DNA of 52,549 bases, taken from positions 1 to 52,549 of the forward strand of contig JABLXX010000012.1 of NCBI GenBank assembly GCA_013177825.1, read 5' to 3'. A program made the position numbers and the translations under genes. Source of the DNA: Syntrophaceae bacterium (GTDB lineage: Bacteria; Desulfobacterota; Syntrophia; Syntrophales; PHBD01). A model generated the notes under the pieces. It ran no database searches. It saw nothing but the letters and a program-made list of their open reading frames with translations, and was not told where the DNA came from. This document shows, one piece after another, positions 144 to 48,687 of the stretch (position 1 is the first letter of the stretch; the number at the start of each line of letters is the position of its first letter).

Positions 144-1013
144 TTAAGCCTTGCGGATGCCCATCATCTCCCGGGCTTCCGCCGGCGTGGCGGGCGTGCG
201 GTTCAGGGACGAAGCGGCCTTCACGGCCCACTCGACCTGCTCCCAGCTGCCCTTGGCCAGCTCGCCGTCGGGCATCCGGGTGTTGTCCTCCATGCCGACC
301 CGCATGTTGCCGCCCATGAGGCAGGACATGACGTTGGCCGGGAACTGCTCGTTGCCCACGGCGCAGGTCGTGAAATTGGCCGTTGCCGGAATGGCGTTGA
401 CCATGGAAATGAACACGTCGGGACGGAACTTCTGGCCGCCGACGACGCCCCAGACGAAGTTGAAGTTCATGGGCTCCGTGAAGAAGCCCTGCTTGGCGAT
501 CAGGAGGGTATTGTCGATGCCGCCGATGTCGTAGCACTCGATCTCCGGCTTCACGCCGTTGGACTCGAAGGCTTTGCCGAAGTCCTGGAGCATCGTGAAG
601 GTGTTGTCGAAGACGTAGTCGAAGAAGATCTGCCCGGTGCCGCGGTCGACGATGCTGAAGTTCATGCTGTTGGTGTTGTATGAGGCCATCTCCGGCTTGA
701 CCGCCACGATCTGGGCCAGCCGCTGTTCCGGCGTCTTGTAGATGCCGACGGCGGAGCTGAGGCAGATGAGCAACTCGGGGCAGCGGGCCTTGATGGCGTC
801 ATGTACGGCCTGGATCCGGTCGATCTCGTGGGTCGGCTGGCCGTCGTCCATTCTCGCATGGACGTGGACCATGGCGGCTCCGGACTGGTAGCACTTGTAC
901 GCCTCTTCGGCGAACTCCTCAATGGTGTAGGGAACGCTGGGGTTGTTGTTCTTCATGGTGGCGGCCCCGGTGAGGGCCGCGGTAATGATGACCTTCTTGT
1001 TTTCCTTGGCCAT
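144..1013 (-). CDS. BKACE-family beta-keto acid cleavage enzyme (3-keto-5-aminohexanoate cleavage enzyme-like)
   Basis: The 289-residue protein has the length and motifs of the BKACE (DUF849) family. These TIM-barrel metal enzymes react a beta-keto acid with acetyl-CoA, giving acetoacetate and a new acyl-CoA. The metal-binding VHVHAR motif is at residues 49-54 (His50, His52), preceded by the N-terminal ITAALTGA strand that is usual here. A C-terminal MGGNMRVGMEDN motif is the conserved active-site segment of the family. The founding member, Kce, works in lysine fermentation, but the family accepts many keto acids. The neighbours (DUF35 and thiolase-like proteins) suggest a carboxylic-acid route rather than lysine. 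A GGAGG ribosome site precedes the start. Family is confident, substrate unknown. Confidence 0.92.
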   Translation of the reverse strand: MAKENKKVIITAALTGAATMKNNNPSVPYTIEEFAEEAYKCYQSGAAMVHVHARMDDGQPTHEIDRIQAVHDAIKARCPELLICLSSAVGIYKTPEQRLAQIVAVKPEMASYNTNSMNFSIVDRGTGQIFFDYVFDNTFTMLQDFGKAFESNGVKPEIECYDIGGIDNTLLIAKQGFFTEPMNFNFVWGVVGGQKFRPDVFISMVNAIPATANFTTCAVGNEQFPANVMSCLMGGNMRVGMEDNTRMPDGELAKGSWEQVEWAVKAASSLNRTPATPAEAREMMGIRKA

Positions 1014-1075: not shown

Positions 1076-1540
1076 TCAGACGGGCTCGAAGTGATCCAGC
1101 TGCATCAGGGTGTTGACGGGTCCCTCGGCGAAGACGGCCTTCACCTTCATGCCGATGGCAACTTCATCGGGATCCACGTCGGCCACGATGTGGGTGAGCG
1201 GCGTGTCGGCCCCGTCCAGCTTGATCTGCCCCAGGATGTACGGCGCTTTCCGGGGAAGATGCTTGTCGTTGTAGTTGACGATGGTGTAGTTGACGAGTTC
1301 CCCCGTCGATCCCACGTCCACCCAGTTGTCGGCGATCCTGGCCCCGCACTTGTTGCAGTGTTCCCGAGGCGGGACATAGGTGATGCTGCATTTGTCGCAC
1401 TTGAGGCCCGTGAGCTTCTTCTTGTCCCTCATGGCGATGATCCACTTCGAGCCGATCCGTCCCACAAAAAACTGGTTGGGCAGGGCCATCCTGGCCTCGA
1501 TGACGAAGCAATCTTTTATGTCTTCACATTTGCATGTCAT
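1076..1540 (-). CDS. DUF35 protein: zinc ribbon plus OB-fold acyl-CoA-associated protein
   Basis: A 154-residue protein with a rubredoxin-like zinc ribbon (Cys48, Cys51, Cys62, Cys65) followed by a beta-rich OB-fold (about residues 75-150). DUF35 proteins partner thiolase-like enzymes, for example BbsA with the BbsB thiolase in anaerobic toluene degradation, and the DUF35-Ltp2 complex in steroid side-chain cleavage. They appear to help bind the CoA substrate. Here it lies between BKACE and a second DUF35-containing fusion, downstream of two thiolase-like genes on the same strand, so a heteromeric complex is likely. The partnership is inferred from neighbourhood. Confidence 0.88.
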   Translation of the reverse strand: MTCKCEDIKDCFVIEARMALPNQFFVGRIGSKWIIAMRDKKKLTGLKCDKCSITYVPPREHCNKCGARIADNWVDVGSTGELVNYTIVNYNDKHLPRKAPYILGQIKLDGADTPLTHIVADVDPDEVAIGMKVKAVFAEGPVNTLMQLDHFEPV

Positions 1541-1558
1541 GGTTCGATTCTCCTCTCC

Positions 1559-2728
1559 CTAGTCGATGATTTCAAAATGGAGGATGTCCCGGAAACTGCC
1601 CGAGGGCTTTTCCGCCCAGACGGGCCGCACCCTCGATCCGATCTTGAGCTTGGGAAGGTCCTCCCTCTTGATTTCGAAAGCGAAGCCTTCCTCCGGCGTG
1701 GCGCCCTCCAGCATGATCCAGGCGCAGGCATAGGGGGTGTCCCGCACTTCGCCGGAGAGGGGATCGGGGCTGGCAAAGTAGACCAGGTCGAAATTCGTGA
1801 CATATCCTTCCGGTCCCAGCTCCACGTACTCCTTGGTTCGCACGTGGCAGAACTGGCAGATCTCCTGGGGGAGGATCAGGGTCCGCTTGCAGAGGGGGCA
1901 GACGCTGGCGAGGAACTTCTTCTCGCGAAGTCCGGCGAACCACTTGCCCATGACGGGGCCCGTGGCGAAGCGCTGGTTAATGGAGGTGACCACCTTCAGG
2001 GAAAGCAGTTCCTCCGCCTCCTCGGCGTTGGGATCCACATACTTGTCGAAATACTTGCCGGTGGCGGCGGCGGCCATCATGTCGCCGTCGATCCTGACTT
2101 TTCCGGAGGTGAAGGCGGCTGCGCCGTCGATCGTGCCGGTCATCATGCCGACATAGGTGACGGCCTCCATGGTCATTTTTACGGCCAGGTCCGAATCGAG
2201 GCCTTCCTTCAGGGTGCAGGTCCCGTCGGCGATGGTGATGGTGAACTGGCCGCCGCCCTCGCCCGTGAGATCGTACCCGTATTTCAGCGTCACGCCCGCC
2301 GCCTTGTCGGGACGGAAACGCTCCCCGATGGCGGAGAGGATTCCCCGGGCGGTGACTTCCGTCTTTTTCTCCGGCACGGTGTATTGCACGAAGATCTGTG
2401 GCAGGAGTGTCATCAGCATCCGTGTGTCGCCGACGACCTTCATCTTTCCCTGGGAGAGGGCGTCGATGGCGCCGATCTTCTGCAGGGTGACGCCGATGAA
2501 CGTCTCCGCATCGGAGGCGATGATCGTGGCCGTGCAAGGGCCGAGGTCGCCCTCGACGGTCTCGACCTTGGCAACCTGGTCCTTGACGGTGAGCTTCCAC
2601 TTGCCCCCGCCCTCGCCGCCGCAATCGTACCCGATGACAACGTCCACGCCCTTGGACGCCTCGGGCTTGAAGCGTTTGGGCATCGTATTGAAGATATCCG
2701 CAACGGTGGTTCCGAAGAATTCAGCCAT
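1559..2728 (-). CDS. SCP2-SCP2-DUF35 fusion protein
   Basis: The protein has about 389 residues and three parts. Two successive SCP2 sterol/lipid-carrier folds (about residues 1-112 and 125-225) share the pattern of a GGG..W/F stretch and an I/M-DGD/VGD-x-M turn. A C-terminal DUF35 unit follows, with zinc-ribbon cysteines near 277, 280, 291 and 294 and an OB-fold. SCP2 domains bind fatty acyl or sterol CoA esters, so it may present a hydrophobic CoA substrate to the adjacent thiolase-like enzymes. I chose the ATG at 2728 (GGAGG with six-base spacing) over an in-frame TTG two codons upstream. It starts 10 bases after the thiolase-like gene ends. The tandem SCP2 fused to DUF35 is unusual. Confidence 0.85.
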   Translation of the reverse strand: MAEFFGTTVADIFNTMPKRFKPEASKGVDVVIGYDCGGEGGGKWKLTVKDQVAKVETVEGDLGPCTATIIASDAETFIGVTLQKIGAIDALSQGKMKVVGDTRMLMTLLPQIFVQYTVPEKKTEVTARGILSAIGERFRPDKAAGVTLKYGYDLTGEGGGQFTITIADGTCTLKEGLDSDLAVKMTMEAVTYVGMMTGTIDGAAAFTSGKVRIDGDMMAAAATGKYFDKYVDPNAEEAEELLSLKVVTSINQRFATGPVMGKWFAGLREKKFLASVCPLCKRTLILPQEICQFCHVRTKEYVELGPEGYVTNFDLVYFASPDPLSGEVRDTPYACAWIMLEGATPEEGFAFEIKREDLPKLKIGSRVRPVWAEKPSGSFRDILHFEIID

Positions 2729-2738
2729 GGTCAACCTC

Positions 2739-3935
2739 CTACCAGTTCAATTCTTTTTCGAGCATGAGCATAACGGTCCACAAGGTGCCGCCGAACCCGG
2801 AGGCCAGGGCATGGCGGACCTCCTTCTTGATCTGGTGCCCGCCGGCGTCCCCCCGGATCTGGAGTGCCGCCTCGGCGGGACGGAGCATGGCCGTGGCGCC
2901 GATGGGATTGCTGGCAATGACGCCTCCCGAGGGGTTGACGGGGAGCTTGCCGTCCAGGTCGAATTCTCCCGCCTCCATGAGCTTGAGAACCGCGTCATCC
3001 TTGAGGAGCAGGAATTCCCGGAGCCAGTCGAGGCCCCAGTAGGCGGACGGATCGTACATCTCGAAAACGTCGAAGTATTCGAGCGGGTTCGTGATGCCGT
3101 TCCGCTTGAACAGTCTTTCCGCACAGTCGCGATGGGTGCTCTTGGGTTTCTGCGCGCCGTACAGGTTGGACATGTTTTCCCCCCGGTGGGAGGTCTCATG
3201 GTCCCGGATCCAGACGGGCGGCTTGGCGGTTCCCTTCTTCACCCGGTCCTCGTGGGTGAGGATCATGGCGCAGGCCCCGTCGGACTGGGAGCACATGTGG
3301 ATCAGCCTGAGCTCGCCGACGAGCTGGGGAGACGTCTCCATCAGGGTCTCCAGCTGGTCGTACTCGAGGCCGAGGCGTCGGTGCGCCCGCTCGTTCAGCA
3401 TGGCGTGCTTGTCCATCATGATCCGGTACTTCATGGCGGCCCGGAGAACCCGATCCTTCCCGAACTCCTTGATCATCTCGGTGGCCGTGGTGGATGTGAG
3501 GGCTCCTGTCTGGAGGTTGCGGAACCAGAGGGGGTCGGCCATGTTCGTGATGCCGCCCGTGGTGTTTCCTTCCTGGAGTTTCTCGAAGCCGAGGCACAGG
3601 ACGGTGTCGTACTGGCCGGAGGCCACGAGGCTGTCTGATGCGCAGACCAGGGTTGCCCCGACGGTGCCGCCCGTGGTGATCCGGTACTCTTCCTTTCCGT
3701 AGGATCCGCAGCCCAGGGCGTGCCACATGTCAGGCTGGAACTGCATCTCGAAGAGCTCCATGTTGCCGTGTACGATGCAGTCGATGTCGTCGAGGGTCAT
3801 ATTGGCGTCCGCCAGGACGTTACGCACGGCCTCGGCGACCATTTCCACCTGATTCTGGTCTTCCTTGTGACTGGAGAGGGTCGTCTGGCCGATCCCGATA
3901 ATGGCTACGTTTCTGTTTTTCTCGTGTTTTTTCAT
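2739..3935 (-). CDS. Thiolase-like (SCP-x family) protein lacking canonical catalytic residues
   Basis: The 398-residue protein has a full thiolase fold. The N-terminal VAIIGIGQT strand, the central substrate-loop region and the C-terminal NPSGG motif are all visible. Where active thiolases carry the nucleophilic Cys (CASG-type), it reads GGTVGAT. The usual GHP motif near NPSGG reads SNP, and the second Cys (C-x-GGG) reads SGFGG. By eye all three classical residues are absent, so ordinary thiolysis is doubtful. Related thiolase-like proteins (Ltp2) act as aldolases with a DUF35 partner, which fits the neighbouring genes. It lies in the minus-strand operon between a second thiolase-like gene and the SCP2-DUF35 fusion. 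Fold confident, reaction unknown. Confidence 0.87.
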   Translation of the reverse strand: MKKHEKNRNVAIIGIGQTTLSSHKEDQNQVEMVAEAVRNVLADANMTLDDIDCIVHGNMELFEMQFQPDMWHALGCGSYGKEEYRITTGGTVGATLVCASDSLVASGQYDTVLCLGFEKLQEGNTTGGITNMADPLWFRNLQTGALTSTTATEMIKEFGKDRVLRAAMKYRIMMDKHAMLNERAHRRLGLEYDQLETLMETSPQLVGELRLIHMCSQSDGACAMILTHEDRVKKGTAKPPVWIRDHETSHRGENMSNLYGAQKPKSTHRDCAERLFKRNGITNPLEYFDVFEMYDPSAYWGLDWLREFLLLKDDAVLKLMEAGEFDLDGKLPVNPSGGVIASNPIGATAMLRPAEAALQIRGDAGGHQIKKEVRHALASGFGGTLWTVMLMLEKELNW

Positions 3936-3947
3936 GATTCCTGCTCC

Positions 3948-5093
3948 TTACGCTTCAAGAATGAGAACGGAGTGGAACTGGCCGGCGGGCCCGTTTGTCG
4001 AGTGGGCCACGGCGCACTTCGCGTCAGGAACCTGGCGGTCTCCCGCGCCGCCCTGAAGCTGGAGGGTCGCCTCGGCGGCCCGATAGAGACCGGAAATGAT
4101 CAGCGGGTTCCCTGCCAGGGTACCGCCGGAGAGGTTTACCCGGTACTTCCCGGGACCACCTTCCGCGACGAAGCGTCCGCCTTCTCCGTCTCCGCAGAAT
4201 CCCAATCCTTCCATCCACATGGGCTGCTGGTAGGCGTAGCAGTCCATGACCTCGACTACGTCGGCGGCCTTTTTCAGATCCTGGATGCCGGCCCTCCGGC
4301 AGGCGTTCGCGGTGGCTTTCTTGAGGGCGAAGTTGCTGGTCAGATCCCGGTCCCCGAAGAAGAAGGTATCCATGCAGTTGGCGAAGCCCGTGATCCAGAC
4401 GGGCTTGTCGGTGAATTCCTTTGCCCGCTCCTCCGAGGCCAGGAGCAGCCCAACGGCTCCGTCGGAGACGGGATAGGCATGAAGCTGGCGGATGGGATCG
4501 CACAGCATGGGGGATGCCTTGACTTTCCCCGCCGGCACGGCTTCCCGTGCGTTGGCATAGGGGTTCTTGGCGGCCCACTGGCGGCTCCGGACCACGATCT
4601 CGGCGAGCTGGTCGTCCGTGAGGCTGCTCTTCCTCATGTAGGCCTGGGCCTGGAGCCCGGCGGCGTTCAGGTAGTCAAGCCCCGTGGCGCGGCCGTAGAA
4701 GGGATCGAAACCGCAGTTCGTGATCATGTTGCGGCTTTCTCCCTGGGATTCCTTGCAGTGTCCCATGATCAGGACAAGGTCCTTGTGCCCGGAGAGGATG
4801 ATGGAGTTGGCATAGCCGATGGCGTTGAGGCCTTCCTGGGCCATTTTCTCTTCCGCCAGGTACTGGCCCCCGATGACGTCCGTGACGCCGTTGTTCGAGA
4901 TGGTCCGGGCGTCGAAGAAATCGTCGGAGGTGCTGACGATCATTTCCACGCCGTTTTCCCCGTACGTGAAGCCCGTCTTCTCCTGGAGGTCCTCCAGCAC
5001 GTCCAGAAGCATGTTCTGGAATCGCCTGTACCAGAGATCCGGTTCGTTCTTGTGCTGGGCAACCGCACAAATCGCTACCCGCTTTGTGGCCAT
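3948..5093 (-). CDS. Second thiolase-like protein lacking canonical catalytic residues
   Basis: A 381-residue thiolase-fold protein of the SCP-x/acetyl-CoA acetyltransferase group. The position of the nucleophilic Cys reads MAQEG. The C-terminal NLSGG is followed by GNP instead of GHP, and the final Cys-Gly-Gly segment is absent. It differs clearly from the neighbouring 2739-3935 protein, so the pair could be unlike subunits of one heteromer. Its stop is 12 bases before the next gene and a ribosome site (AAGGAGACG) precedes its start. It appears to be the first gene of the tight run 5093 to 1; the PHP gene upstream is separated by 96 bases. Confidence 0.85.
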   Translation of the reverse strand: MATKRVAICAVAQHKNEPDLWYRRFQNMLLDVLEDLQEKTGFTYGENGVEMIVSTSDDFFDARTISNNGVTDVIGGQYLAEEKMAQEGLNAIGYANSIILSGHKDLVLIMGHCKESQGESRNMITNCGFDPFYGRATGLDYLNAAGLQAQAYMRKSSLTDDQLAEIVVRSRQWAAKNPYANAREAVPAGKVKASPMLCDPIRQLHAYPVSDGAVGLLLASEERAKEFTDKPVWITGFANCMDTFFFGDRDLTSNFALKKATANACRRAGIQDLKKAADVVEVMDCYAYQQPMWMEGLGFCGDGEGGRFVAEGGPGKYRVNLSGGTLAGNPLIISGLYRAAEATLQLQGGAGDRQVPDAKCAVAHSTNGPAGQFHSVLILEA

Positions 5094-5189: not shown

Positions 5190-5795
5190 TCAGGCAAATC
5201 GGATCAGCCGCAGATCCGCGGCGGACTTTCGGCGGGCCTTGTCGCCCGCAAAACAGTTCATGAATCGCCCCTGCTTGACGGCCCGGATGATTTCATCCCG
5301 GTCCAGCGGGGCCTCCAGTTCGATCCATCCGCGTCCGCACCCCAGGAGGGTGTGGGAATCGTCGGCCGCCACCTTGGGATAGGGAATTTCCGGGATGTCG
5401 AACTGGGGCGTGTAGAAGCCGTGGGTCGTGATCTCCACGGCGTCGATCGGATATTGCTCGGCCACTTCCCCGATGATGCGGATGCAGTCTTTCAGGCTGA
5501 CGTCGACGTCGGCGGGGTGATTGAAGATGTGAAGGACTTCCTTATCCCCCTCGATGCGGCTGACGTGGACGTAGCCCTTGCGGCAGTGGACCGTCAGCTC
5601 GATTCCCGTGAAGACGAGCAGGCGTGTATCGATCCTGCCGATGGCGTCTCCGTAGGAGGGCTTCAGCAGGTGATCGTGGTCCGTAATGGCGATGAAGTCG
5701 TATCCGAGGCGTGCATAGGTGTCGGCCGTCTCCTGGGGCGTCAGGGCTCCGTCGGAGAAAGTCGTGTGCGTGTGAAGCTGTCCCTTGAGAATCAT
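5190..5795 (-). CDS. PHP-domain metal-dependent phosphoesterase
   Basis: With the ATG at 5795 the protein has 201 residues and begins directly with the PHP signature: His8-x-His10 and Asp15, then TDHDH near residues 38-42, Glu65 and His93. These are the usual metal ligands of the polymerase and histidinol phosphatase (PHP) superfamily. An upstream in-frame extension to 5942 is low-complexity and overlaps the TetR gene, so I rejected it. It lies 118 bases downstream of the TetR gene on the same strand and ahead of the thiolase-like genes. Substrate unknown; possibly a nucleotide or sugar phosphate. Confidence 0.85.
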   Translation of the reverse strand: MILKGQLHTHTTFSDGALTPQETADTYARLGYDFIAITDHDHLLKPSYGDAIGRIDTRLLVFTGIELTVHCRKGYVHVSRIEGDKEVLHIFNHPADVDVSLKDCIRIIGEVAEQYPIDAVEITTHGFYTPQFDIPEIPYPKVAADDSHTLLGCGRGWIELEAPLDRDEIIRAVKQGRFMNCFAGDKARRKSAADLRLIRFA

Positions 5796-5913: not shown

Positions 5914-6516
5914 CTAATGCTCTGCTTCCGCCTCCGCCCCATGAAGAAAAACGGAGGTGAGGCTTTCGATGATCCGCTTCTCCCTGGCCTTGCTCAGCGT
6001 TTCATTGCCCAGGATCATGACCGACAGGAACGTGTCGATGGCGCCGAGAAATACATAGGTCAGGTAGTTGGACTGGATATCGGCTCGCAGGGTTCCCCGG
6101 GTCTGGCCTTCGCGGATGATGTCTTCACAGAGGTTGAAGAGTTTCCGGAATTTGTCCTTGCCCCGAGGGCTCGAGTGATAGATGAATCCCCGGGAGACCT
6201 CGGCCACAAAAATGGACATCTGGCTCGGTGTTGCGGTATACGCGTTCATCATGAACTTGATGATGTCCACGAGTTTTTCCTTGGTGGCCGCGGTGCTCTT
6301 CTTGAGCATTTCCAGCTCGTCGTAAAAGGTCTTCCACCAGTTCTCGACAATGGCATCGAAAAGTTTTTCCTTGTTTTCGAAATAGTGATAGATGAGTCCG
6401 TACGAGAGGTTGGCTTCTTTGGCAATATCGGCCATGCGGGCTTCGGCGAAGCCTTTCGTGCTGAAGACCTTCAGGGCCGCTTCGACGATGATTTTTTCAC
6501 TGGCTACTTTTTCCAT
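5914..6516 (-). CDS. TetR-family transcriptional regulator
   Basis: A 200-residue TetR protein. The N-terminal HTH (about residues 8-55) carries the typical AALKVFSTKGFAEA and YGLIYHYFENKEKLF stretches, followed by an all-helical ligand domain. The start is set at MEKVAS (6516). An extension to 6552 would be coded by the 16-bp palindrome at 6539-6554, which looks like its operator. TetR repressors of acyl-CoA gene sets usually respond to an acyl-CoA or fatty acid, so control of the neighbouring cluster is a reasonable inference. A divergently transcribed DUF2845 gene starts at 6668. Confidence 0.9.
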   Translation of the reverse strand: MEKVASEKIIVEAALKVFSTKGFAEARMADIAKEANLSYGLIYHYFENKEKLFDAIVENWWKTFYDELEMLKKSTAATKEKLVDIIKFMMNAYTATPSQMSIFVAEVSRGFIYHSSPRGKDKFRKLFNLCEDIIREGQTRGTLRADIQSNYLTYVFLGAIDTFLSVMILGNETLSKAREKRIIESLTSVFLHGAEAEAEH

Positions 6517-6538
6517 GAAGCACCGCTTAACAAATGTT

Positions 6539-6554
6539 GATTGACATGTCAATC
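6539..6554. promoter_or_regulatory. 16-bp perfect palindrome, likely TetR operator
   Basis: GATTGACATGTCAATC is a perfect inverted repeat just 5' of the TetR start codon and in the divergent intergenic region. Being symmetric, it also supplies a TTGACA hexamer on both strands, so repressor binding could block promoters in either direction. Position and symmetry are seen; the assignment to the adjacent regulator is inferred. Confidence 0.6.
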
Positions 6555-39924: not shown

Positions 39925-40671
39925 TTACCAATAGGTAAAAGTTACCGGTTTGGGCATAGATATTGCCGCTTTTTTACTTGTATTACATTTTTCGCATGTC
40001 AATTGGAAGTTTGTAGGATCATTTGTGCCTCCTTGATGTAATGGAATTATGTGATCATAATGTAATCCATGTTGCGACATTGGGGTCAATAATCCTGTCA
40101 AATCCCTTCTACATATTTGGCAATGACCTTTATCTCTATGATATACAGCATTTGTCAACCATTTTGGCAAATAATTAAGACGCGACAATACCCCATCTTT
40201 CTTAAATATTTTAGGGTTGTCTTCTTTCTTCATTTTCTTTACCACGCTAGATACTATCATCTGAAACCTAAAAAGACATTCATGATCCGAGAACAGAATA
40301 TGAAATGCCGGTTCCGCGATTCTTTCCATTATTATCTCAAGTAGTTCATAAGCATCATCCCTATGATCATGAAACTCGTTCTCGTTAAGCCAAGACGGTA
40401 TATCTACCTCAGCATCACGGCACATTTTTCTAAATTGTTCGATATTTTCTTCTCCTGTATGACGCATAATCCACTCCCAATCATTACAACCCACCTCCGT
40501 TATAAAGGTGTGCAATAAAGTCTTCTTTTTCGGTAAAGCAATCCTGTCGAGAAATTCCAAACTCGAAGGATCAAAATAATCTTCGATATATTCTTCTGAT
40601 TTGTTGTCATCAACCATTGAAGCAATGCGGGCGATAAATTGATAGGCAAATGTAAATTTTAATTCCTTCAT
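39925..40671 (-). CDS. HNH endonuclease with helical N-terminal domain
   Basis: A 248-residue protein. Residues 185-240 carry an HNH site framed by two zinc knuckles: CQICRRD, HYDHIIPLHQGGTNDPTNFQ, CEKCNTSKK. The N-terminal 170 residues are helical, acidic and unknown, possibly a specificity or partner-binding part. It follows the PLD nuclease gene after 23 bases, so the two are probably one transcript. The gene is AT-rich. A role in attacking invading DNA is likely but not shown. Confidence 0.85.
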   Translation of the reverse strand: MKELKFTFAYQFIARIASMVDDNKSEEYIEDYFDPSSLEFLDRIALPKKKTLLHTFITEVGCNDWEWIMRHTGEENIEQFRKMCRDAEVDIPSWLNENEFHDHRDDAYELLEIIMERIAEPAFHILFSDHECLFRFQMIVSSVVKKMKKEDNPKIFKKDGVLSRLNYLPKWLTNAVYHRDKGHCQICRRDLTGLLTPMSQHGLHYDHIIPLHQGGTNDPTNFQLTCEKCNTSKKAAISMPKPVTFTYW

Positions 40672-40694
40672 TATGAACTTTCCTCATTACCTAG

Positions 40695-41969
40695 TCATAA
40701 TTGACGAACATCAAATCCCAAATATCTCAATACCTTTGTAGTACGAGAATTCACCACAGGTAATTCTTCTTTATTTTGCCATCCGATCAATTCTTGGACA
40801 TTTGCTTGTCCAAATACATTAAGTTTATATTCAATATCAAATATTAACTTTGCCATTCTTTCGATTACATCTTCTTTACCAAAAACCAGATAAGATAGAC
40901 TGCTCTTAATTTTATCAATTTTATTCTTTCCAAGAAACTCATTCTTAAGTGTATCTAAACCTCCATCAAAATATCTTAAACGATCATGAAATGAATGTAA
41001 CGTGCACAGAGCATGAAACATCTCATCCGGTGTGGACTTACATATAGAGTCTTCTGAATCGAACACTGATAATAATCTCGGATAATTTTCATTAACAATT
41101 GTATTTTCAAAATATAGCCTAGGAGTTTCGTGCCATTCTTCTATCAGTTCTCTAATTTGTTTTATTTGCTTTTCTCCCGATATAATGGGTGTTGTTTCCC
41201 ACTTGTCTTTTTTGGCATGTGCTTCCCTTACAAAGCTAATAAAAGAATCGATCTCTAATCTTAATGGTATATGTTTTTCATCTACTTTCCTTGCACCCAC
41301 ATTCTCATATACAGAACGCACGGCGCGGAATGCATTAACCGTTTCTTGATATGTTTTTCTGTAATCTTCGATAAATATATTCTCTTTTGTTTTATTTTCT
41401 TTATCCCTCGTTATATTTGAAAATATTACCTTTCCTATGTATTTTTGAACCTTTTCTTCAAGCCTCGATTCATCACCATTTAATGATTTATATTGGTTAT
41501 ATATATCATCATATTTCTTAACGATGTCTTTGGTTAGAACATTTGCCTCTGCCCAATATTCAGAAAAAACATCTAGAAGTTGACTGAATACATTATCTTC
41601 GGGATCTATTTGTATCATGATTTCTTGGTTAGTGAACATCGCCGATTTTGTCAAATTCGCTGAACCAACCAAAGCTCCCGACGATCCAAATATGTATAGC
41701 TTAGGATGAAAGGTTCTATCAGAATAGAATCGTGCTTCAACACGTTCCATTTTTAATAAATTTTCCAAAGCATATGGTAATGTTGGGTATCCAAGTCTCA
41801 CAATTATTCTAATATTACAACCTCTTTTGTTTAATTCTTTTAAGATGTCTGTGTCAGTGAGAAATGCAACGGCAATATTAATTGTATCGGTCTTACGCAT
41901 TAGATTATCAATTCCATTAAAAATGAAATCACTGCGTAACTTATTGTTAGTGTAGATTCGTAAATTCAT
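40695..41969 (-). CDS. PLD-domain nuclease-like protein
   Basis: A 424-residue protein with a single N-terminal phospholipase-D-type active site (His88-x-Lys90 in FHPKLYIFG and Asn105 in GSANLT). Such proteins usually dimerise to build a full catalytic pair and often act as nucleases. The remaining 280 residues are helical and unlike anything I recognise. The downstream partner is the HNH gene. Two different nuclease folds in one operon suggest an anti-phage or restriction unit. Confidence 0.8.
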   Translation of the reverse strand: MNLRIYTNNKLRSDFIFNGIDNLMRKTDTINIAVAFLTDTDILKELNKRGCNIRIIVRLGYPTLPYALENLLKMERVEARFYSDRTFHPKLYIFGSSGALVGSANLTKSAMFTNQEIMIQIDPEDNVFSQLLDVFSEYWAEANVLTKDIVKKYDDIYNQYKSLNGDESRLEEKVQKYIGKVIFSNITRDKENKTKENIFIEDYRKTYQETVNAFRAVRSVYENVGARKVDEKHIPLRLEIDSFISFVREAHAKKDKWETTPIISGEKQIKQIRELIEEWHETPRLYFENTIVNENYPRLLSVFDSEDSICKSTPDEMFHALCTLHSFHDRLRYFDGGLDTLKNEFLGKNKIDKIKSSLSYLVFGKEDVIERMAKLIFDIEYKLNVFGQANVQELIGWQNKEELPVVNSRTTKVLRYLGFDVRQL

Positions 41970-41998
41970 TACAGAAGCCTTCCTTATTATTTATTCAG

Positions 41999-42036
41999 TC
42001 CTGCCCTGGCTCACCAATCAGATAATCATCCTGATT
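41999..42036 (-). repeat. Short fragment duplicated from the DUF6933-like remnant
   Basis: On the minus strand it reads LIGEPGQD and stop, matching NDDLIGEPGQD of the remnant at 43378-43530. About 38 bases are similar between the two places. A small duplication scar in the cargo block. Confidence 0.5.
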
Positions 42037-42051
42037 GATATAGTCCTACTG

Positions 42052-42870
42052 TTATAAACGAGGCACAGGGATTTGACTGATTAATAATCTATCATTACCG
42101 TTTTGAAAATACCCTGTTTCATTAATCTGCTTGAGTACATCAGTCGACTTTTTATCACACATCTTCACCAGATAATTTAAGATGTTCTCCGTTGCACCAT
42201 CCCCTCTTCCATACATAAGCGAAAAGTTGTCTGGCAAGTAAACATCACGAAATAAAGCTCTTTCTTTGTTGTTATATAATGTGTGATTGTCAAGATCATG
42301 ATCCGACACAAGGGCATATTTTTTCGGCCTGTTAGATGGCTGATTGTTGATTCTTGCTATTGCGTTTATCCAACTGAATTTTTCAGGTGACAACTCATTC
42401 GGACAATTACGAAATATAATTGCACCCTGCCACTGAAAATCTGCAAAGAAACGGTTATTTTCGGATGTGGGGCGAACTATGCAATGAACGATTCCAGCTA
42501 CTGATATTCTGTCACTTCCAATTTCTCGGGTGTTCGTGTCGATTGATATGATCATTTCCATCGAGGACAGATGTCTCATAAGATCGGCTTCATTAGGAAT
42601 GACTTTGTCTTGGATTCGTGAAGTTACCTTCTCCTTTCCTGAACTCGATTCATAATGAATTTGAGAATATGTAACAGAAGGCTTTATCAATTGATCATCA
42701 TAAGTTAATCCAGTTAACTCCATTTTATCTTTATCGTAATAAAATCCATGAAGAGGTTCAGGTGAACCTATAATTATCGTTCGTGCCCGCGGTTTTCTAT
42801 CAAGACAGCATTTCTTATATTTAAGTCCACTTCCACAAGGGCAAGGTTTATTTCTTCCAATTTTAGTCAT
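42052..42870 (-). CDS. SEC-C zinc-motif protein of unknown function
   Basis: A 272-residue protein opening with a SEC-C motif (CPCGSGLKYKKCC, Cys10, Cys12, Cys21, Cys22), the short zinc fold that ends SecA and caps many unrelated proteins. The other 245 residues form an alpha/beta domain I do not recognise. AT-rich, in the minus-strand cargo between an exported protein and the PLD-HNH pair. Confidence 0.75.
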   Translation of the reverse strand: MTKIGRNKPCPCGSGLKYKKCCLDRKPRARTIIIGSPEPLHGFYYDKDKMELTGLTYDDQLIKPSVTYSQIHYESSSGKEKVTSRIQDKVIPNEADLMRHLSSMEMIISIDTNTREIGSDRISVAGIVHCIVRPTSENNRFFADFQWQGAIIFRNCPNELSPEKFSWINAIARINNQPSNRPKKYALVSDHDLDNHTLYNNKERALFRDVYLPDNFSLMYGRGDGATENILNYLVKMCDKKSTDVLKQINETGYFQNGNDRLLISQIPVPRL

Positions 42871-42883
42871 AATTACTTAATAA

Positions 42884-43348
42884 TCAATGTCCCAACCAAA
42901 CATTTGGTATGTACTTCTCGTGATTTCTTTTACCAACATCAGACATATTACTGACATAAGTATACCCACTTGCATTAACTAAATGTATTCTTGGTTTTAG
43001 CTCATTGCTAAAATCAATAACTCCTGTAATCTCCGAGCTTCCATATTTATCATTAAGAGGACGGCATTTAATTCTGTGTACATTTCTCGAAACTATGGCC
43101 TTTTCAAGAACTATAAATAGATATGGTTCAACATGAATGATGCCGACAATCGGATTAAATGTTACTAATTGAAGAGATTTGTTGGAATACTCTAATTTCC
43201 CCATAATGAAGTCGTCTTCATTAATTGTGACCGCTATTTTTATACTGTAGTCTGAATCAGAATTCAGAATATTTTCTGACCATGCCTGTGTACCAAGCAG
43301 GCAAAGCATACAAATATAAATAATGCCTAGAACACTCTTTTTTTTCAT
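42884..43348 (-). CDS. Small exported protein of unknown function
   Basis: A 154-residue protein with a signal peptide (KKKSVLGIIYICMLCLLG, cut near AWS) and a beta-rich mature part without cysteines. It ends 13 bases before the SEC-C gene. No family recognised. An exported protein is odd within a nuclease cargo block and may be an unrelated passenger. Confidence 0.65.
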   Translation of the reverse strand: MKKKSVLGIIYICMLCLLGTQAWSENILNSDSDYSIKIAVTINEDDFIMGKLEYSNKSLQLVTFNPIVGIIHVEPYLFIVLEKAIVSRNVHRIKCRPLNDKYGSSEITGVIDFSNELKPRIHLVNASGYTYVSNMSDVGKRNHEKYIPNVWLGH

Positions 43349-43377
43349 CTAGTCTTCCTCCGATATTGACGAGTATT

Positions 43378-43530
43378 TCAGGTGTTCTGACATTCGGAAT
43401 GCCTATCCAAGGTGATCAGGTGGCAGTACCACTCGTTGAAGCTCTTGGCGTCCTGCCCTGGCTCACCGATCAGATCATCATTCTTCAGGCCAAGGGCCTG
43501 CCGGGCTTTCATGGAAGTGCTGAAGGGCAT
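43378..43530 (-). pseudogene. Truncated DUF6933-like protein
   Basis: The frame from ATG 43530 to TGA 43378 (50 codons) reads MPFSTSMKARQALGLKNDDL and then FNEWYCHLITLDR. That is the N-terminal third of DUF6933-type proteins (WY..LI..DRRK). It stops right after, where the family continues for about 120 residues. A part of it is duplicated at 41999-42036. Confidence 0.5.
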
Positions 43531-43535
43531 AGTAT

Positions 43536-44033
43536 TTATTGAAGCCTCATAATGCCCTGTGGGGCAATCGAGTTCTCATCACATAAGAGCCATATTTGTT
43601 TAAATGGATTCACATTGGGAATAACAATTTGTTTCTTGTGTTTTCGATAGTCAGTCAGTGACCATAACATAAAGGCATTTCGTACAATTAACCATGTAGG
43701 TGAAAACTGATAAGTCTTTGACGATTTTCCTGCGAGAATATTATTAAGAGAACCCAGTGCGCGCACATCTAAGTGTGTTAACCGACGCATTTGATGTAAT
43801 TTTTCAGGGAAGTCTTTCATCTTGCGATTCCCTAGACGCACGGCCGCTTCCACACCCGTTCCATAGCTATGTGCCACTTCAATTCCAATTTCTTTGTTAT
43901 TGAGTCGACAAATGGTGTCAGGAAATGGCGGTTGGCATTGACGAATAAAATGCAGTAACCTTTTGTGCTTACAGTTGTATATCTTAACAAAGTTGATAAC
44001 GGCATGATATTCAAGCTTGTCTTTCTGTTTCAT
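43536..44033 (-). CDS. Small protein downstream of OLD nuclease, possible PD-(D/E)xK nuclease
   Basis: A 165-residue AT-rich protein 29 bases after the OLD-family gene. PPFPDTICRLNNKEIGIEVA resembles the first half of a PD-(D/E)xK nuclease site (Asp, then a beta strand with Glu), but the Lys is not where expected. The remaining part is basic (KMKDFPEKLHQMRRLTH). It could be a nuclease or regulatory partner of the OLD protein. Function uncertain. Confidence 0.6.
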   Translation of the reverse strand: MKQKDKLEYHAVINFVKIYNCKHKRLLHFIRQCQPPFPDTICRLNNKEIGIEVAHSYGTGVEAAVRLGNRKMKDFPEKLHQMRRLTHLDVRALGSLNNILAGKSSKTYQFSPTWLIVRNAFMLWSLTDYRKHKKQIVIPNVNPFKQIWLLCDENSIAPQGIMRLQ

Positions 44034-44062
44034 TGTATAATGCGAACTGTAACGGTTATCGA

Positions 44063-45850
44063 CTACGCATAGATTGTATTAATTTTATCTCGGAGGGAAT
44101 TCTCTATAGAGAATCCCTCTGTTTCAACATGTGTAAGAGTTGCATATGGCTTGTTCTTTTTGCTGGGATCTGCAATTCCAAGTTCCTCCTCTATATCGTT
44201 TATCAATTCGATACATTGGCCCAATGTTTTGTCGATCTGTGAATTGATCCGTTTCGATACTTTATCCGCTGCTGCTATTGCATCAGCTGACTTGCCCGGT
44301 TGGTGATCTTTGTCGTAAACAACAATGTAAGGGAGATTAAACTTATTGAGAAGCTGGATATAGTTTGGCATTGAGTCTTTCGATCCACAGTCTATAAGCG
44401 TGTAGTCATGTCTAAATATACCCAGCCTGTGGGCCAGCAAAGGGAGGACTGTTTTATCTGTTGGACCTTCAAGAAGAATAACCTTTCGAGCAAAGAATAG
44501 CTCTCCGCGATCAGGATTGATCCAATAGGCAATGTTGAATAAATCTTTCTCTTTGGGGTCGGGAAAAAGTTCTTCTACGCATTGAAAAGTAGTTGTTCCT
44601 TCCTCAACACTATTCTTTCTAACGATGCAGATTGAACGATAACGATCAAGATTAATAAAAGAACTTGAATGGGTGCAGATTAAGACCTGGCTTTCAGCCT
44701 TGGATAGTTCAACTACGGAATCAAAGAGTTCTCTCTGTGCTTGTGGGTGAAGATAAAGTTCTGGTTCTTCTAAAATGAAATATGAGGATCTGGACGCCTT
44801 ACGAGAAGTTCCCCCATCCTTGTTCTCTTCTTGTGAATCTTCCCGATCTTCCTCCTGAATCGCTAGTTTTGCAAGAGATCGAACGAGAGCAAAGATTAAC
44901 GCCCGCTGTAGGCCCTGTCCTTTTCGCCCGACATTAGTTCTAATTCCATCGTCAACCCAAACTGTCGCACCGACTTTAAATATGTCATCAAGATCCGGTG
45001 GAGTTATTTCTACATCTATTGTTGCGGCCCAGTTACGTAATTCATCGGCAAGAGATTTCTCAAATGATGTTAACTCAATCGGTCTAGCCTCATTCTCTGT
45101 ACCATCTTCGTTGACTCTGTTTAGTATTCTCATGAGTGATGCTATTCTTTCTTTGGCATCGCTAAATTCTTTGTTTGTCTCTGACATTTTATTTATAACT
45201 CTTGCATAGAGTGCACTGAAAACGGACCTTCCTCTTGTGCTGAGATCTTCTTCAGCCTTCTTCACTGACGGCACAAAATAAACCTCTCCAAAAATACCTT
45301 TAGCTACATTTTTGGCTCCAAGAAAAGGACCTTGTTCAAGCTCATACGAAAATATCAAATTATCCCGGTTATTCTCAATATATCTTTCTTGTGCTTCCCT
45401 GAAAATATCCTTTGTAATACGGCCCCCTCCGGGAAGTAGTTGAGCCAATGGCAACTTTTCTGCATCTTCACGCTTCGCATATGCAGCAATGTTGGCTTCT
45501 TTAAGCCAATCTTCCATTGGAGTTTCTGTGTAGCCATGATAAGAGGAAATTTGTTCTTTGGTTGCAACCTTTTGAACTCTGATTGTATTGTTGGCCGTCA
45601 CATATTTCTTAAAAGTTGTTCTGTCTGAATTATCAAGGTCACCAAATAAGACTTCAACAAACAACTCTTTGGTGTCTTTTTTAAAATCGAGGTCATCTAG
45701 CCCTATTTCACCGAAGAAGAATAACAAAGCTGATAAAATATTAGACTTCCCATGGTTATTCTGACCAATGAATATCATTAAATCTTGGACAGAAAGTTTT
45801 ATGTTTCCAATAGAACGCCAGTTTTGAATAATTACCTCTCGGATCTTCAT
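44063..45850 (-). CDS. OLD-family ATPase/TOPRIM endonuclease
   Basis: A 595-residue protein. The N-terminal ABC/SMC-like ATPase has Walker A GQNNHGKSN (29-37), a coiled middle region and Walker B ILEEPELYLHPQAQ. A C-terminal TOPRIM domain starts at VILLEGPTDKTVLP and includes VVYDKDHQPGKSADA. This is the OLD architecture: ATP-controlled nucleases of phage P2 and of Gabija (GajA). No UvrD-like helicase (GajB) is nearby; instead a 165-residue protein follows. Probably an anti-phage cargo gene. A ribosome site (GGAGAGAAC) precedes the start. Confidence 0.9.
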   Translation of the reverse strand: MKIREVIIQNWRSIGNIKLSVQDLMIFIGQNNHGKSNILSALLFFFGEIGLDDLDFKKDTKELFVEVLFGDLDNSDRTTFKKYVTANNTIRVQKVATKEQISSYHGYTETPMEDWLKEANIAAYAKREDAEKLPLAQLLPGGGRITKDIFREAQERYIENNRDNLIFSYELEQGPFLGAKNVAKGIFGEVYFVPSVKKAEEDLSTRGRSVFSALYARVINKMSETNKEFSDAKERIASLMRILNRVNEDGTENEARPIELTSFEKSLADELRNWAATIDVEITPPDLDDIFKVGATVWVDDGIRTNVGRKGQGLQRALIFALVRSLAKLAIQEEDREDSQEENKDGGTSRKASRSSYFILEEPELYLHPQAQRELFDSVVELSKAESQVLICTHSSSFINLDRYRSICIVRKNSVEEGTTTFQCVEELFPDPKEKDLFNIAYWINPDRGELFFARKVILLEGPTDKTVLPLLAHRLGIFRHDYTLIDCGSKDSMPNYIQLLNKFNLPYIVVYDKDHQPGKSADAIAAADKVSKRINSQIDKTLGQCIELINDIEEELGIADPSKKNKPYATLTHVETEGFSIENSLRDKINTIYA

Positions 45851-46204
45851 TGTTCTCTCCTTTTGGCAGGAATGAACCTTTGAACTATAACATTACCAAA
45901 ATCCATTCCTTTCCAGTAGCAATGTTTAAGAATCGGGAGATAATAGAGTTTAGAGGAGCCTGACAACAGGAAGAAGAAAAGACCTGACGGATTGTCGCCT
46001 TTACCACGGTTCCCCCCTATGACAAGGCTGATTACCGCATGAACGGAAACAAAAATCTCCGGCATAGTCAAGTGTTTTGTCATTAGCATACTACGAGGAT
46101 GGTCTATATCCATCCAGGTAATCTCACCCCTCCAACTCCCCCTTGACATTCTCTGCCGCTTTGGTATCCTGCTGGTGCTAAAATTTCATCCGGAAGGCCA
46201 TCCG

Positions 46205-46233
46205 TTAATGGCTATTTCTGTTTTTGCCATAAA
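46205..46233 (+). promoter_or_regulatory. Candidate promoter of the structured RNA
   Basis: TTAATG (46205-46210) and CATAAA (46228-46233) are separated by 17 bases. The predicted start, near 46240, coincides with the first base of the folded element at 46242. Confidence 0.35.
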
Positions 46234-46241
46234 CACAAATT

Positions 46242-46312
46242 TGCTCGTGGAATCCGTCACTCGCAAGAGCCGGGGGGCTTGATGAAGCCTTAGCAATTCC
46301 ACGAGCATTTTT
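46242..46312 (+). ncRNA. Compact three-stem RNA candidate (P4 CI / P1 C4 immunity-RNA-like layout)
   Basis: A perfect 12-base outer stem, TGCTCGTGGAAT (46242-46253) with ATTCCACGAGCA (46296-46307), closes two inner hairpins: CTC-GCAA-GAG (46260-46269, GNRA loop) and GGCTT-GATG-AAGCC (46276-46289). TTTTTC follows the outer stem, so it carries its own terminator. Size (about 70 bases), layout and phage context recall the antisense immunity RNAs of satellite phage P4 (CI) and phage P1 (C4). The family match is from memory and unverified. Confidence 0.5.
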
Positions 46313-46330
46313 CGTTTATGGGGGACCTCA

Positions 46331-46597
46331 ATGCTAGAACAGAAACAAGAGCGGTTGGAGGTGTTGCAGGATCAGGCGTTAGCAGCGGTAGGGAAGAAGC
46401 TGGACGACCTGGAAGACGTGATCGGGAAATTCCCGGCGGTCACCGATGAAGAGCTTGCGGATCTGGAAGTGGAGGTTGATCCGGAGGCCTTGGAACGGCT
46501 GATCGAATCGGTCCGGGAATGGGAGAAGGAGGTTGACGAGCAGATTGAAAACCTCCTGAACGTACTGGACGGAGGAGGTGACGGCGATGCGAAATGA
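46331..46597 (+). CDS. Small acidic coiled-coil protein
   Basis: An 88-residue, strongly acidic, helical protein (MLEQKQERLEVLQDQALAAV to DGGGDGDAK). It starts 19 bases after the structured RNA and its tail overlaps the next gene. No family recognised. If the RNA is an immunity RNA, this operon is its probable target. Confidence 0.6.
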   Translation: MLEQKQERLEVLQDQALAAVGKKLDDLEDVIGKFPAVTDEELADLEVEVDPEALERLIESVREWEKEVDEQIENLLNVLDGGGDGDAK

Positions 46598-47003
46598 CAA
46601 GCTGTCACCGGCCGAGGAAATCAGGGAACATGGAAAGTCCGCCCAGGGCAGAAAGGAATTGATCAGGCACCTGGACGGCGACAGGCTGACCGCGAGGGAA
46701 GCCATCTTAGCCAAGTGTTACGACTGCTGCGGGCGCTTTGTAGACGGCAAGGAAGACTGCCGGGTGACCCGTTGCCCCCTTCACCCCTTCATGCCCTATC
46801 GAGAGTCCCAAGAGGAGAAACCGAAACGGGAGATTTCAGAGGAGCGACGTCAAGCAATGAGAGATCGGATGCAAAAGGTGCTCAATGCGAAGCGTCAGAA
46901 TACCCCTTGTTTGCTCCCGCGCATGACAAATTGTCATACGCTAGAGATTTTCTCCCCCCAGGATGAAGGATCGGTCATGTCGAAGGAGGTGAGGGCAAAA
47001 TGA
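46587..47003 (+). CDS. Zinc-finger phage-like protein
   Basis: A 138-residue basic protein with CYDCCGRFVDGKEDC then RVTRCPLHPFMPYR, a Cys-rich finger found in many prophage proteins of unknown role. ATG at 46587 has GGAGGAGG eight bases upstream; a GTG at 46578 is possible. It overlaps the preceding stop by 11 bases and the next start by four. Confidence 0.7.
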   Translation: MRNDKLSPAEEIREHGKSAQGRKELIRHLDGDRLTAREAILAKCYDCCGRFVDGKEDCRVTRCPLHPFMPYRESQEEKPKREISEERRQAMRDRMQKVLNAKRQNTPCLLPRMTNCHTLEIFSPQDEGSVMSKEVRAK

Positions 47004-47449
47004 TGCAGAAAACGAAGCGGGAAATGCCGGTGGGGAAACTGGCGCGGAGAGTCCGGGAACTGAAGGCGGAATTGGCCGAGGAAAAGAGCCGGACAGTCGA
47101 CGACATGGTGGAGGCCCGGAACTTCGGCGGGGCATGGTACGGGAAACCCTACGCCCTCCAAGACGTGATGCACGGCGAGAGAATGGAAGAGCTTGGCCAC
47201 CTGTTCGCGGAGATGAAGAAGGCGGGCATGGTGCCCAGGGGCGAGGACCCGAAGAAGTCACCGGACTTCGCCTTCTGTGAACAGATGTTCGCCATGCTGG
47301 AATATCTGATCATGAACGCGCCCAGGGTAATGGATTCCCTGTTGGCCTTACAGATCCGCGCCATGAAGGCAGAGTTGTCGGCATTCCAGGTGCAAGGGGT
47401 TGCCAACGCCGGTACAGATGAAGTATCGTTCCGCGGGCAGATCGTTTAA
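47000..47449 (+). CDS. Hypothetical phage-like protein
   Basis: A 149-residue helical protein (MMQKTKREMPVGKLARRVRE...), coupled by ATGA overlap to the zinc-finger gene. No motif recognised. It is the last gene before the integrase. A hairpin of GGCCAGGG/CCCTGGCC lies at 47467-47501 in the gap, without a T run. Confidence 0.6.
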   Translation: MMQKTKREMPVGKLARRVRELKAELAEEKSRTVDDMVEARNFGGAWYGKPYALQDVMHGERMEELGHLFAEMKKAGMVPRGEDPKKSPDFAFCEQMFAMLEYLIMNAPRVMDSLLALQIRAMKAELSAFQVQGVANAGTDEVSFRGQIV

Positions 47450-47537
47450 CCACGGCTGATTCTGAAGGCCAGGGGGTGTGTGACAAGCCCGCTCCCTGGC
47501 CCTGCAGAAACGAACCGAAGAGATATGAGGTGACCGC

Positions 47538-48608: not shown

Positions 48609-48649
48609 AAGGGCGATTAGCTCAGGTGGATAGAGCGTTGGTCTCCGGA
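48609..48649 (+). repeat. attR: direct repeat forming the 5' half of the intact tRNA-Arg
   Basis: Identical to 30146-30186. Here the core is continued by the matching 3' half of the tRNA, giving a complete gene. Confidence 0.93.
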
Positions 48650-48687
48650 ACCAAAGGCCCCGCGTTCGAGTCGCGGATCGCCCACCA
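48611..48687 (+). tRNA. tRNA-Arg (anticodon CCG)
   Basis: A complete 77-base cloverleaf. The acceptor is GGGCGAT/ATCGCCC, the D stem GCTC/GAGC, and the anticodon stem TTGGT/ACCAA with loop CTCCGGA (anticodon CCG, reading CGG). The T stem is CCGCG/CGCGG with loop TTCGAGT, followed by an encoded ACCA. The 5' half lies inside the element's repeat, so after integration it is element-supplied together with whatever promoter drives it. It starts two bases after the integrase stop. Confidence 0.97.

Follow-up and report, generated by a model that had tools for sequence, protein, structure and literature searches.

Examining the first 52,549 nucleotides of a contig (C12; JABLXX010000012.1) from the 4.24 Mb genome of a Syntrophaceae bacterium (assembly GCA_013177825.1), a stretch that we call the window, we find an operon in which two adjacent thiolase-like proteins, A and B, are encoded together with two DUF35-containing proteins, one of them fused to tandem SCP2 domains, and with a beta-keto acid cleavage enzyme (BKACE). 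Going by sequence, we put at roughly 0.6 the probability that A and B constitute a heteromeric, coenzyme A (CoA)-dependent retro-aldolase of the kind represented by Ltp3 and Ltp4 of sterol-degrading actinobacteria, acting as an A·B·DUF35 complex on a beta-hydroxyacyl-CoA. B is the probable catalytic subunit, with an aldolase-type site, and A its probable pseudo-enzyme partner, with a degenerate one. The observations behind this reading are gene order, homology, fold, residue conservation, the parallel diversification of A and B, and the fusion of DUF35 to BKACE in relatives. The genes occupy the first 6.6 kb of the window, all on the minus strand; in order of transcription they are:

5914..6552, minus strand: TetR-family regulator, 212 residues (Pfam TetR_N, 62.4 bits), a possible regulator of the operon
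5190..5795, minus strand: PHP-domain protein, in the 201-residue form kept in orthologs (Pfam PHP match)
3948..5093, minus strand: thiolase-like protein A, 381 residues, Ltp4-type (Pfam Thiolase_C_1, 94.4 bits)
2739..3935, minus strand: thiolase-like protein B, 398 residues, Ltp3-like (Pfam Thiolase_C_1, 69 bits; Thiolase_N, 28.3 bits)
1559..2734, minus strand: SCP2-SCP2-DUF35 fusion, 391 residues from a TTG start, with an ATG two codons in (two Pfam SCP2 stretches)
1076..1540, minus strand: DUF35 protein, 154 residues, zinc ribbon and oligonucleotide/oligosaccharide-binding (OB) fold (OB_ChsH2_C, 57.3 bits; zf-ChsH2, 25.3 bits)
144..1013, minus strand: BKACE, 289 residues (Pfam PF05853, 303.8 bits)

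Open reading frame (ORF) coordinates leave gaps of 12, 4, 18 and 62 bases between successive genes from A to BKACE, downstream of which the contig is cut off. An original prediction, made for positions 1076-5093, had named the two thiolase-like proteins, the DUF35 protein, the SCP2-SCP2-DUF35 fusion and BKACE; the ORF list and Pfam bear this gene content out, with BKACE lying outside that span. The PHP and TetR genes did not figure in that prediction.

Active sites and fold of A and B

Alignment reveals no nucleophilic Cys in either A or B, and the His of the thiolase GHP motif is replaced in both, the motif reading GNP in A and SNP in B. Judged by these residues, neither protein can be an ordinary thiolase. 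The original prediction had described both as catalytically stripped, lacking the nucleophile, the GHP His and a second Cys. The first two losses hold for the pair, but A does have a Cys (Cys285) at the HDCF position of SCP2-type thiolases, and while A is indeed degenerate, B is not stripped. Aligned with Ltp2 and Sal, B presents Gly90 at the nucleophile position, Tyr294-Asp-Pro296, and Ser-Asn343-Pro344; Tyr294 sits where thiolases have the His of HDxF, and together with Gly90 it makes up the Gly/Tyr combination of Ltp2 and Sal. The portions of PMC12329534 available to us describe Gly in place of the thiolase Cys in steroid aldolases, and name as catalytic residues Tyr302 and Cys304 (YDCY) in Sal and Tyr294 (YDHF) and Tyr344 in Ltp2.

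These positions in B are conserved over a wide range of divergence. A search of 198 genomes of the phylum with B gave matches in 31, the bacterium's own included, at E<=1e-60; taking the best protein per genome and leaving out the genome's own locus (L090) yielded 29 further B proteins, 31-74% identical to B, and with the window 30 B rows. Gly90, Tyr294 and Asn343 recur in 29/29 of them and Pro296 in 28/29, while none has Cys at position 90 or His at 343. Across the 30 rows, 31 of 381 tested columns are invariant, Gly90, Tyr294 and Asn343 among them. The corresponding set for A comprises 27 rows (28 A proteins less the short L104 and L098, with L096, cut at its C-terminus, retained, plus the window), and here 17 of 375 columns are invariant, none of them at 283, 285 or 329, the positions that match the B site. 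Because the site is invariant in B and the matching positions are not in A, B looks catalytic and A a decayed partner. The two genes also travel together: within 1.5 kb of the 29 further B loci an A gene was found in 26 (28 without the overlap filter) and a DUF35-type gene in 28.

Two apparent catalytic cysteines were considered and rejected. Cys285 of A might have resembled the catalytic Cys of Sal, but it occurs in only one of the 27 A rows, that of the window, and otherwise in the close orthologs L018, L019 and L028. Three of the six other B proteins of the genome (L011, L013 and L014), which carry a Cys in T-C-G-S-T-G or S-C-G-S-T-G, might have been ordinary thiolases; the alignment puts this Cys immediately ahead of the nucleophile position, where these proteins too have Gly. 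Residue 87 of A, within the decayed nucleophile loop, is acidic in 27/27 rows.

AlphaFold models of A and B both match thiolase-fold chains by Foldseek. In VIA-align comparisons, run for B, the model aligns at Z 28-32 with SCP2 thiolase, BbsB, archaeal thiolases, PhlC, Sal and Ltp2, and at 22-23 with classical thiolases. Since part of the region before the nucleophile position has a predicted local distance difference test score (pLDDT) under 50, the models were used for fold only, and a common fold of this kind, as modelled, does not reveal the reaction.

Kinship with Ltp3-Ltp4 and pairing of A with B

The phylogeny of the two proteins sets them with the actinobacterial pair. A tree of 48 rows, with BbsB as its root, joins A and Ltp4 in one branch (100/99), Ltp4 lying inside A, and unites A, B, Ltp3, Ltp4 and a Rhodococcus ruber pair in one branch (99/99) that stands apart from Ltp2/Sal and from thiolases. 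Ltp2 and Sal have a branch of their own (99/91; 100/99 with one protein of the bacterium's own genome, oth_L016), and neither A nor B falls within it. The tree drew six of 19 rows from the A ortholog set and six of 19 from the B set, the window included, and six of its rows belong to no group. Its A and B halves contain the same groups, namely (L010, L012), (L011, L013, L014), the Ltp proteins, and (L009, Cupriavidus, window), and differ in their deeper order. The best NCBIfam matches of A are PRK08313, PRK06066, PRK06064 and PRK07937, and that of B is PRK08313, all below cut-off.

For the actinobacterial reference proteins, from Tsukamurella, Nonomuraea and Nocardia, the labels Ltp2, Ltp3 and Ltp4 are our own; the records read 'thiolase domain-containing protein' or are unannotated. 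The Tsukamurella pair and the Nocardia Ltp2 pass the NCBIfam cut-offs, the latter also matching PDB 6ok1 at E 5e-182, and the Nonomuraea and Nocardia pairs were assigned by similarity and gene order. On the Tsukamurella plasmid NZ_LR134446, a 309-residue protein with two OB_ChsH2_C stretches is followed by PRK07937 and PRK08313 proteins, both over cut-off; an EchA19 equivalog lies near the pair, and kstR, MlaD/mce-type genes and a steroid 3-ketoacyl-CoA thiolase are also present in this record. This order and setting fit Rv3521-ltp4-ltp3, as given in a gene list within PMC6429209 (Rv3521; ltp4, Rv3522; ltp3, Rv3523).

The likeness to Ltp3-Ltp4 thus extends to two adjacent thiolase-like genes with two DUF35 domains, one chain strongly degenerate (Ltp4, A) and the other with Gly at the nucleophile position and a Y-x-P motif (Ltp3, B). 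There are differences: the actinobacterial DUF35 domains share a double-DUF35 protein, whereas here they sit on separate proteins, one fused to tandem SCP2; PHP and BKACE genes join the operon here; and the relatives of the window are delta-proteobacterial metagenome assemblies. Ltp2-ChsH2 (PDB 6ok1) and Sal-Shy (PDB 9myr) likewise combine a thiolase fold with a DUF35 partner and have Gly at the nucleophile position and Tyr in a YDxx motif, but each has one kind of thiolase-like chain where the window has two, and they occupy a separate branch of the tree. BbsAB, a benzoylsuccinyl-CoA thiolase, belongs to anaerobic degradation. It too (PDB 7pxp) pairs a thiolase fold with a DUF35 subunit, differing in its single kind of thiolase chain and in BbsB's Cys nucleophile, HDAF and GHP; BbsA is counted among DUF35 domains in an available portion of PMC12329534.

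Within the Syntrophaceae genome itself, A and B come in many versions. There are six further A-B pairs, seven in all, each adjoining one or two DUF35 genes (a single one in the L013 cluster), and 7/7 A genes adjoin a B gene; in the six clusters outside the window, the SCP2 fusion is matched over its DUF35 part only. The identity matrices of A and B over the seven pairs correlate at r = 0.976, a value reached by one of 5040 permutations, the true pairing, and at r = 0.81 (6/20000) when the Nocardia and Cupriavidus pairs are added. Because the members of each pair have diverged in step, this pattern supports A and B being an obligate heteromer, a statement about the pairing of sequences that does not imply contact. 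Two Cupriavidus necator plasmids also carry the order A-B-DUF35-DUF35. In one of the own-genome clusters, on C11 (L009 12004-14586), the A-B-DUF35 genes have as neighbours a protein that weakly matches CrtC-lipocalin (20.5 bits, below the cut-off) and a flavin adenine dinucleotide (FAD) amine-oxidase-type protein, a faint hint of isoprenoid-like substrates.

The structural comparison would equally suit a different reaction, condensation or acyl transfer in the manner of PhlABC or of the archaeal thiolase/3-hydroxy-3-methylglutaryl-CoA (HMG-CoA) synthase/DUF35 complex, in which the pair would form or cleave a beta-diketone or beta-ketoacyl thioester: B matches PhlC (Z 30.9), MucABC (29.6) and the Methanothermococcus complex (31.7) at least as well as Sal (28.3) and Ltp2 (28.1), and by sequence it is closer to SCP2 thiolases than to either aldolase. 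Enzymes of that kind, however, use a Cys nucleophile, which BbsB, SCP2 thiolase and the Pyrococcus thiolase show and which is Gly in all 30 B rows; moreover the tree, built without PhlC and the Methanothermococcus thiolase, sets the pair apart from those three. We therefore regard a condensing role as unlikely, and favour retro-aldol cleavage. The original prediction of a heteromeric CoA-dependent lyase is in this respect supported, by homology to ltp3/ltp4, by the aldolase-type Gly/Tyr of B and by the co-diversification of A and B.

The operon in relatives and a possible role for BKACE

Both DUF35 assignments can be followed in the sequences. The free DUF35 protein passes Pfam gathering (57.3 against 27.1 bits for OB_ChsH2_C, 25.3 against 23.2 for zf-ChsH2) and has an intact C-x2-C-x10-C-x2-C motif. 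The C-terminus of the SCP2 fusion falls just short for OB_ChsH2_C (24.9 against 27.1) and gives no zf-ChsH2 match at 0.001; its zinc motif of the same spacing is intact, and its last 150 residues align with DUF35 proteins. BKACE is a clear member of its family (303.8 bits against a Pfam gathering score of 24.8), but lies under the cut-off of all four matching NCBIfam BKACE-type models (best 259.7 against 382); its closest known counterparts are 3-keto-5-aminohexanoate cleavage enzyme and other BKACE.

Scanning genome contigs with A yielded 13 ortholog loci, in delta-proteobacterial or unplaced metagenome assemblies (Syntrophaceae, Desulfobacteraceae and others), whose A proteins are 56-95% identical to that of the window over the best segment. 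The PHP gene stands upstream of A in 13/13, as it does in all seven loci covering that side in a further set of eight. A clear TetR match occupies the same place in L018, L020, L021 and L028 of the first set and in L070, L071 and L075 of the second. The SCP2-DUF35 gene follows the SCP2-type A-B pair in all 13 loci save the first set of L030, where the caller did not recover the ORF. A search with the SCP2 fusion through 155 genomes of the class found matches in 31 (own included) at E<=1e-25, covering at least residues 3-366 in 27 of them; within 1.5 kb of the SCP2-DUF35 gene, BKACE was found in 28/30 loci and B in 29/30, the window included. Because the gene order recurs in so many genomes, the operon is not a chance assembly.

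In L018 and L020 the operon runs on with BKACE, two acyl-CoA dehydrogenases and a CoA ligase, and in L029 it also contains a MaoC hydratase. By eye, neither of the two acyl-CoA dehydrogenases has its Glu in the usual EGT motif; some enzymes of this kind normally lack it there, and we conclude nothing from it. Among the SCP2-type units read, with their ligase and acyl-CoA dehydrogenases, no hydroxyacyl-CoA dehydrogenase or ordinary thiolase was recognised. This combination, with the L029 hydratase, fits hydration followed directly by retro-aldol cleavage. Elsewhere the unit stands beside a second: in L019, another A-B pair, accompanied by an ordinary thiolase and an FAD oxidoreductase, lies just upstream, and L071 and L075 have, after the SCP2-type unit, another A-B unit that includes a ligase, a pair of acyl-CoA dehydrogenases and two genes for MaoC-type hydratases, a set that we take to recall the dehydrogenase-hydratase-aldolase sets of actinobacterial side-chain operons. 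Genes of the CoA-transferase family also adjoin A-B clusters in relatives (L028 11285-13046, PF01144; L073 12671-14448 and L070 4-1071, by similarity); this broad family also includes IpdAB of steroid-ring degradation.

That BKACE and the A-B pair work together is best supported by the fusion of BKACE to DUF35. In 13 of the 30 loci from the SCP2-fusion search, in 13 genomes, the two form a single ORF of 474-480 residues, with DUF35 N-terminal (about residues 3-160) and BKACE C-terminal (about 190-479). The 16 fused ORFs counted reduce to these 13 loci, as L072, L073 and L074 repeat L054, L055 and L056, and the long BKACE ORFs of L019 and L045, which have no DUF35 match, are excluded. Pfam confirms both parts in the two fusions scanned (L073, BKACE 304.7 and OB_ChsH2_C 49.2 bits; L074, 316.3 and 45.2). 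The carriers belong to a branch in which the SCP2 fusion shares about 40% identity with the window's. Since DUF35 and BKACE are fused in these relatives, BKACE is tied to the thiolase-like complex. In ChsH2 and Shy, DUF35 is fused to the hydratase of the preceding step and tethers it to the aldolase (PMC12329534, in the portion available); by analogy, DUF35 would here link BKACE to the thiolase-like pair. The bacterium's genome has 13 BKACE genes, of which five lie in the seven A-B clusters (those of the window and C11, two on C5, and one on C2) and eight outside.

These features suggest a course for the reaction. Each thiolase-like chain would bind one DUF35 domain, that of the free protein or the DUF35 end of the SCP2 fusion, comparable to Sal-Shy, whose reported arrangement is alpha-beta-beta-alpha. 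The probable role of the tandem SCP2 domains is to hold a hydrophobic acyl-CoA; with the original prediction, we infer that they present a bulky hydrophobic substrate. That substrate would be a beta-hydroxyacyl-CoA, most probably one that is beta-branched or bulky, produced by the ligase, the acyl-CoA dehydrogenases and, in some relatives, the MaoC hydratase of the extended operon. B would hold the only plausible active site, Tyr294 acting as base on the beta-hydroxyl, Gly90 taking the place of the thiolase Cys, and Asn343, which replaces the GHP His, perhaps contributing to an oxyanion hole. The products would be acetyl- or propionyl-CoA and a carbonyl compound.

For phytosterol branches, the available text of PMC6678751 sets out a route of desaturation, C28 carboxylation, hydration and cleavage by the heteromeric aldol-lyase Ltp3-Ltp4, after which the carboxylate must be thioesterified. 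By analogy, we infer that the non-CoA product of Ltp3-Ltp4-type chemistry would be a beta-keto acid, the kind of substrate for which BKACE is named; if the substrate of the window's complex carried a carboxyl on its branch, as proposed for phytosterol side chains, its product would be one too. BKACE exchanges a beta-keto acid with acetyl-CoA to give acetoacetate and an acyl-CoA. Docked through DUF35, it could thus carry out the thioesterification, turning the beta-keto acid and acetyl-CoA into acetoacetate and a shortened acyl-CoA. This extension is weaker than the aldol-lyase claim, with the DUF35-BKACE fusion speaking in its favour.

The actinobacterial parallel raises the question of whether the substrate is the same, the anaerobe using a sterol side-chain aldolase to degrade sterols. 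The core genes are shared, SCP2 domains are present, paired acyl-CoA dehydrogenases and paired MaoC-type hydratases stand beside such pairs in L071 and L075, and anaerobic loss of the cholesterol side chain by aldolytic cleavage is described for Sterolibacterium, a member of another group, in the available text of PMC6678751. Against this, the genes read included none recognised as acting on the sterol ring, though no search aimed at them was made; the seven diverged pairs in one genome suggest several substrates; and we found no report of sterol degradation by such bacteria in open-licence PMC papers. A sterol substrate is accordingly quite improbable. That neither A nor B is catalytic, both serving as carriers or scaffolds and leaving the chemistry to BKACE, the dehydrogenases and the hydratase, is very doubtful: both lack the thiolase Cys and His, DUF35 has been proposed to deliver acyl-CoA (PMC2954200, in the part available) and its fusion to BKACE in 13 genomes would let a scaffold serve BKACE, but B proteins 31-74% identical to the window's never vary at Gly90, Tyr294 or Asn343, which is hard to explain without catalysis.

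Weighing the retro-aldolase, and neighbouring genes

Several points weigh against the reading of A and B as an Ltp3/Ltp4-type retro-aldolase. The second catalytic residue of the known aldolases (Tyr344 in Ltp2, Cys304 in Sal) is missing from B, and its general acid is not assigned, since Pro344 and Pro296 stand in those places. Both proteins lie far under the cut-offs of the actinobacterial families (A, 166.6 bits against 419 for PRK07937; B, 259.5 against 514 for PRK08313), and B and Ltp3 meet in an unresolved fork of the tree instead of forming one clade. The structural models are modest, with mean pLDDT 72.1 for B and 71.5 for A, and loops 60-89 and 120-145 of B under 50. BKACE is absent from view in seven of the 13 A-ortholog loci: L022 and L024 stop too early, and in L023, L025, L026, L027 and L030 its place is taken, as far as the loci reach, by another A-B pair, by a ligase or by an acyl-CoA dehydrogenase. 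No hydratase gene was recognised in the operon of the closest relative (L018, L068), and the dehydrogenase and thiolase of an ordinary route could be supplied by genes encoded elsewhere. Three carboxyltransferase genes occur in the genome, none near a cluster, leaving the carboxylated-substrate version without local support; beside the window operon no sterol genes were seen, in the course of reading and not of a dedicated search. We know of no activity for any member of this lineage.

The original prediction knew of no described pathway with this set of genes. This does not hold for the core, which ltp4-ltp3 and the double-DUF35 gene share, and SCP2-DUF35 fusions, along with tandem DUF35, were noted in 2010 (PMC2954200, in the part available). 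The core is thus not without precedent, being known from actinobacteria; what is new is the anaerobic variant with BKACE and PHP, and in open-licence PMC papers we found no description of such pairs in anaerobes, sulfate reducers or syntrophs, or with BKACE or PHP. Ltp3 and Ltp4 are known from the genetics of sterol degradation, no structure named for either occurs among the PDB matches, and the available passages describe no mechanism. In the present lineage there are many divergent pairs, a clear division into catalytic and degenerate chains, and a BKACE gene, fused to DUF35 in relatives, that suggests the identity of the product; the Ltp3/Ltp4-type reaction, and a possible anaerobic route past beta-branched chains, become directly testable. 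More tentatively, it is possible that Ltp3 and Ltp4 typify a broad family, spread through anaerobe-rich lineages, of thiolase-fold aldol-lyases composed of a catalytic chain and a pseudo-enzyme. Its version here would be HMG-CoA-lyase-like, with BKACE docked through DUF35 and the main part of the released beta-keto acid thioesterified by exchange with acetyl-CoA, without adenosine triphosphate. If so, anaerobes could get past the beta-branched isoprenoid, terpenoid or sterol-like chains that block beta-oxidation.

Upstream of A, the longest ORF of the PHP gene (250 residues) extends to 5942, with a Pfam PHP score of 29.9 bits as against 32.4 in a 201-residue ortholog. The protein retains HxH, DHD and a downstream DSH, and by these motifs may be a hydrolase. 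The TetR gene probably belongs to the operon. Far from these genes, at 39925-48687 of the window, lies a low-GC stretch (guanine-cytosine fraction 0.36 at 40-44 kb) in which a phage integrase adjoins a tRNA-Arg (48611-48687), and which also encodes HNH endonuclease, PLD/NgoFVII-like, SEC-C and OLD-type ATPase-TOPRIM proteins; it looks like an integrated island, perhaps carrying defence genes.

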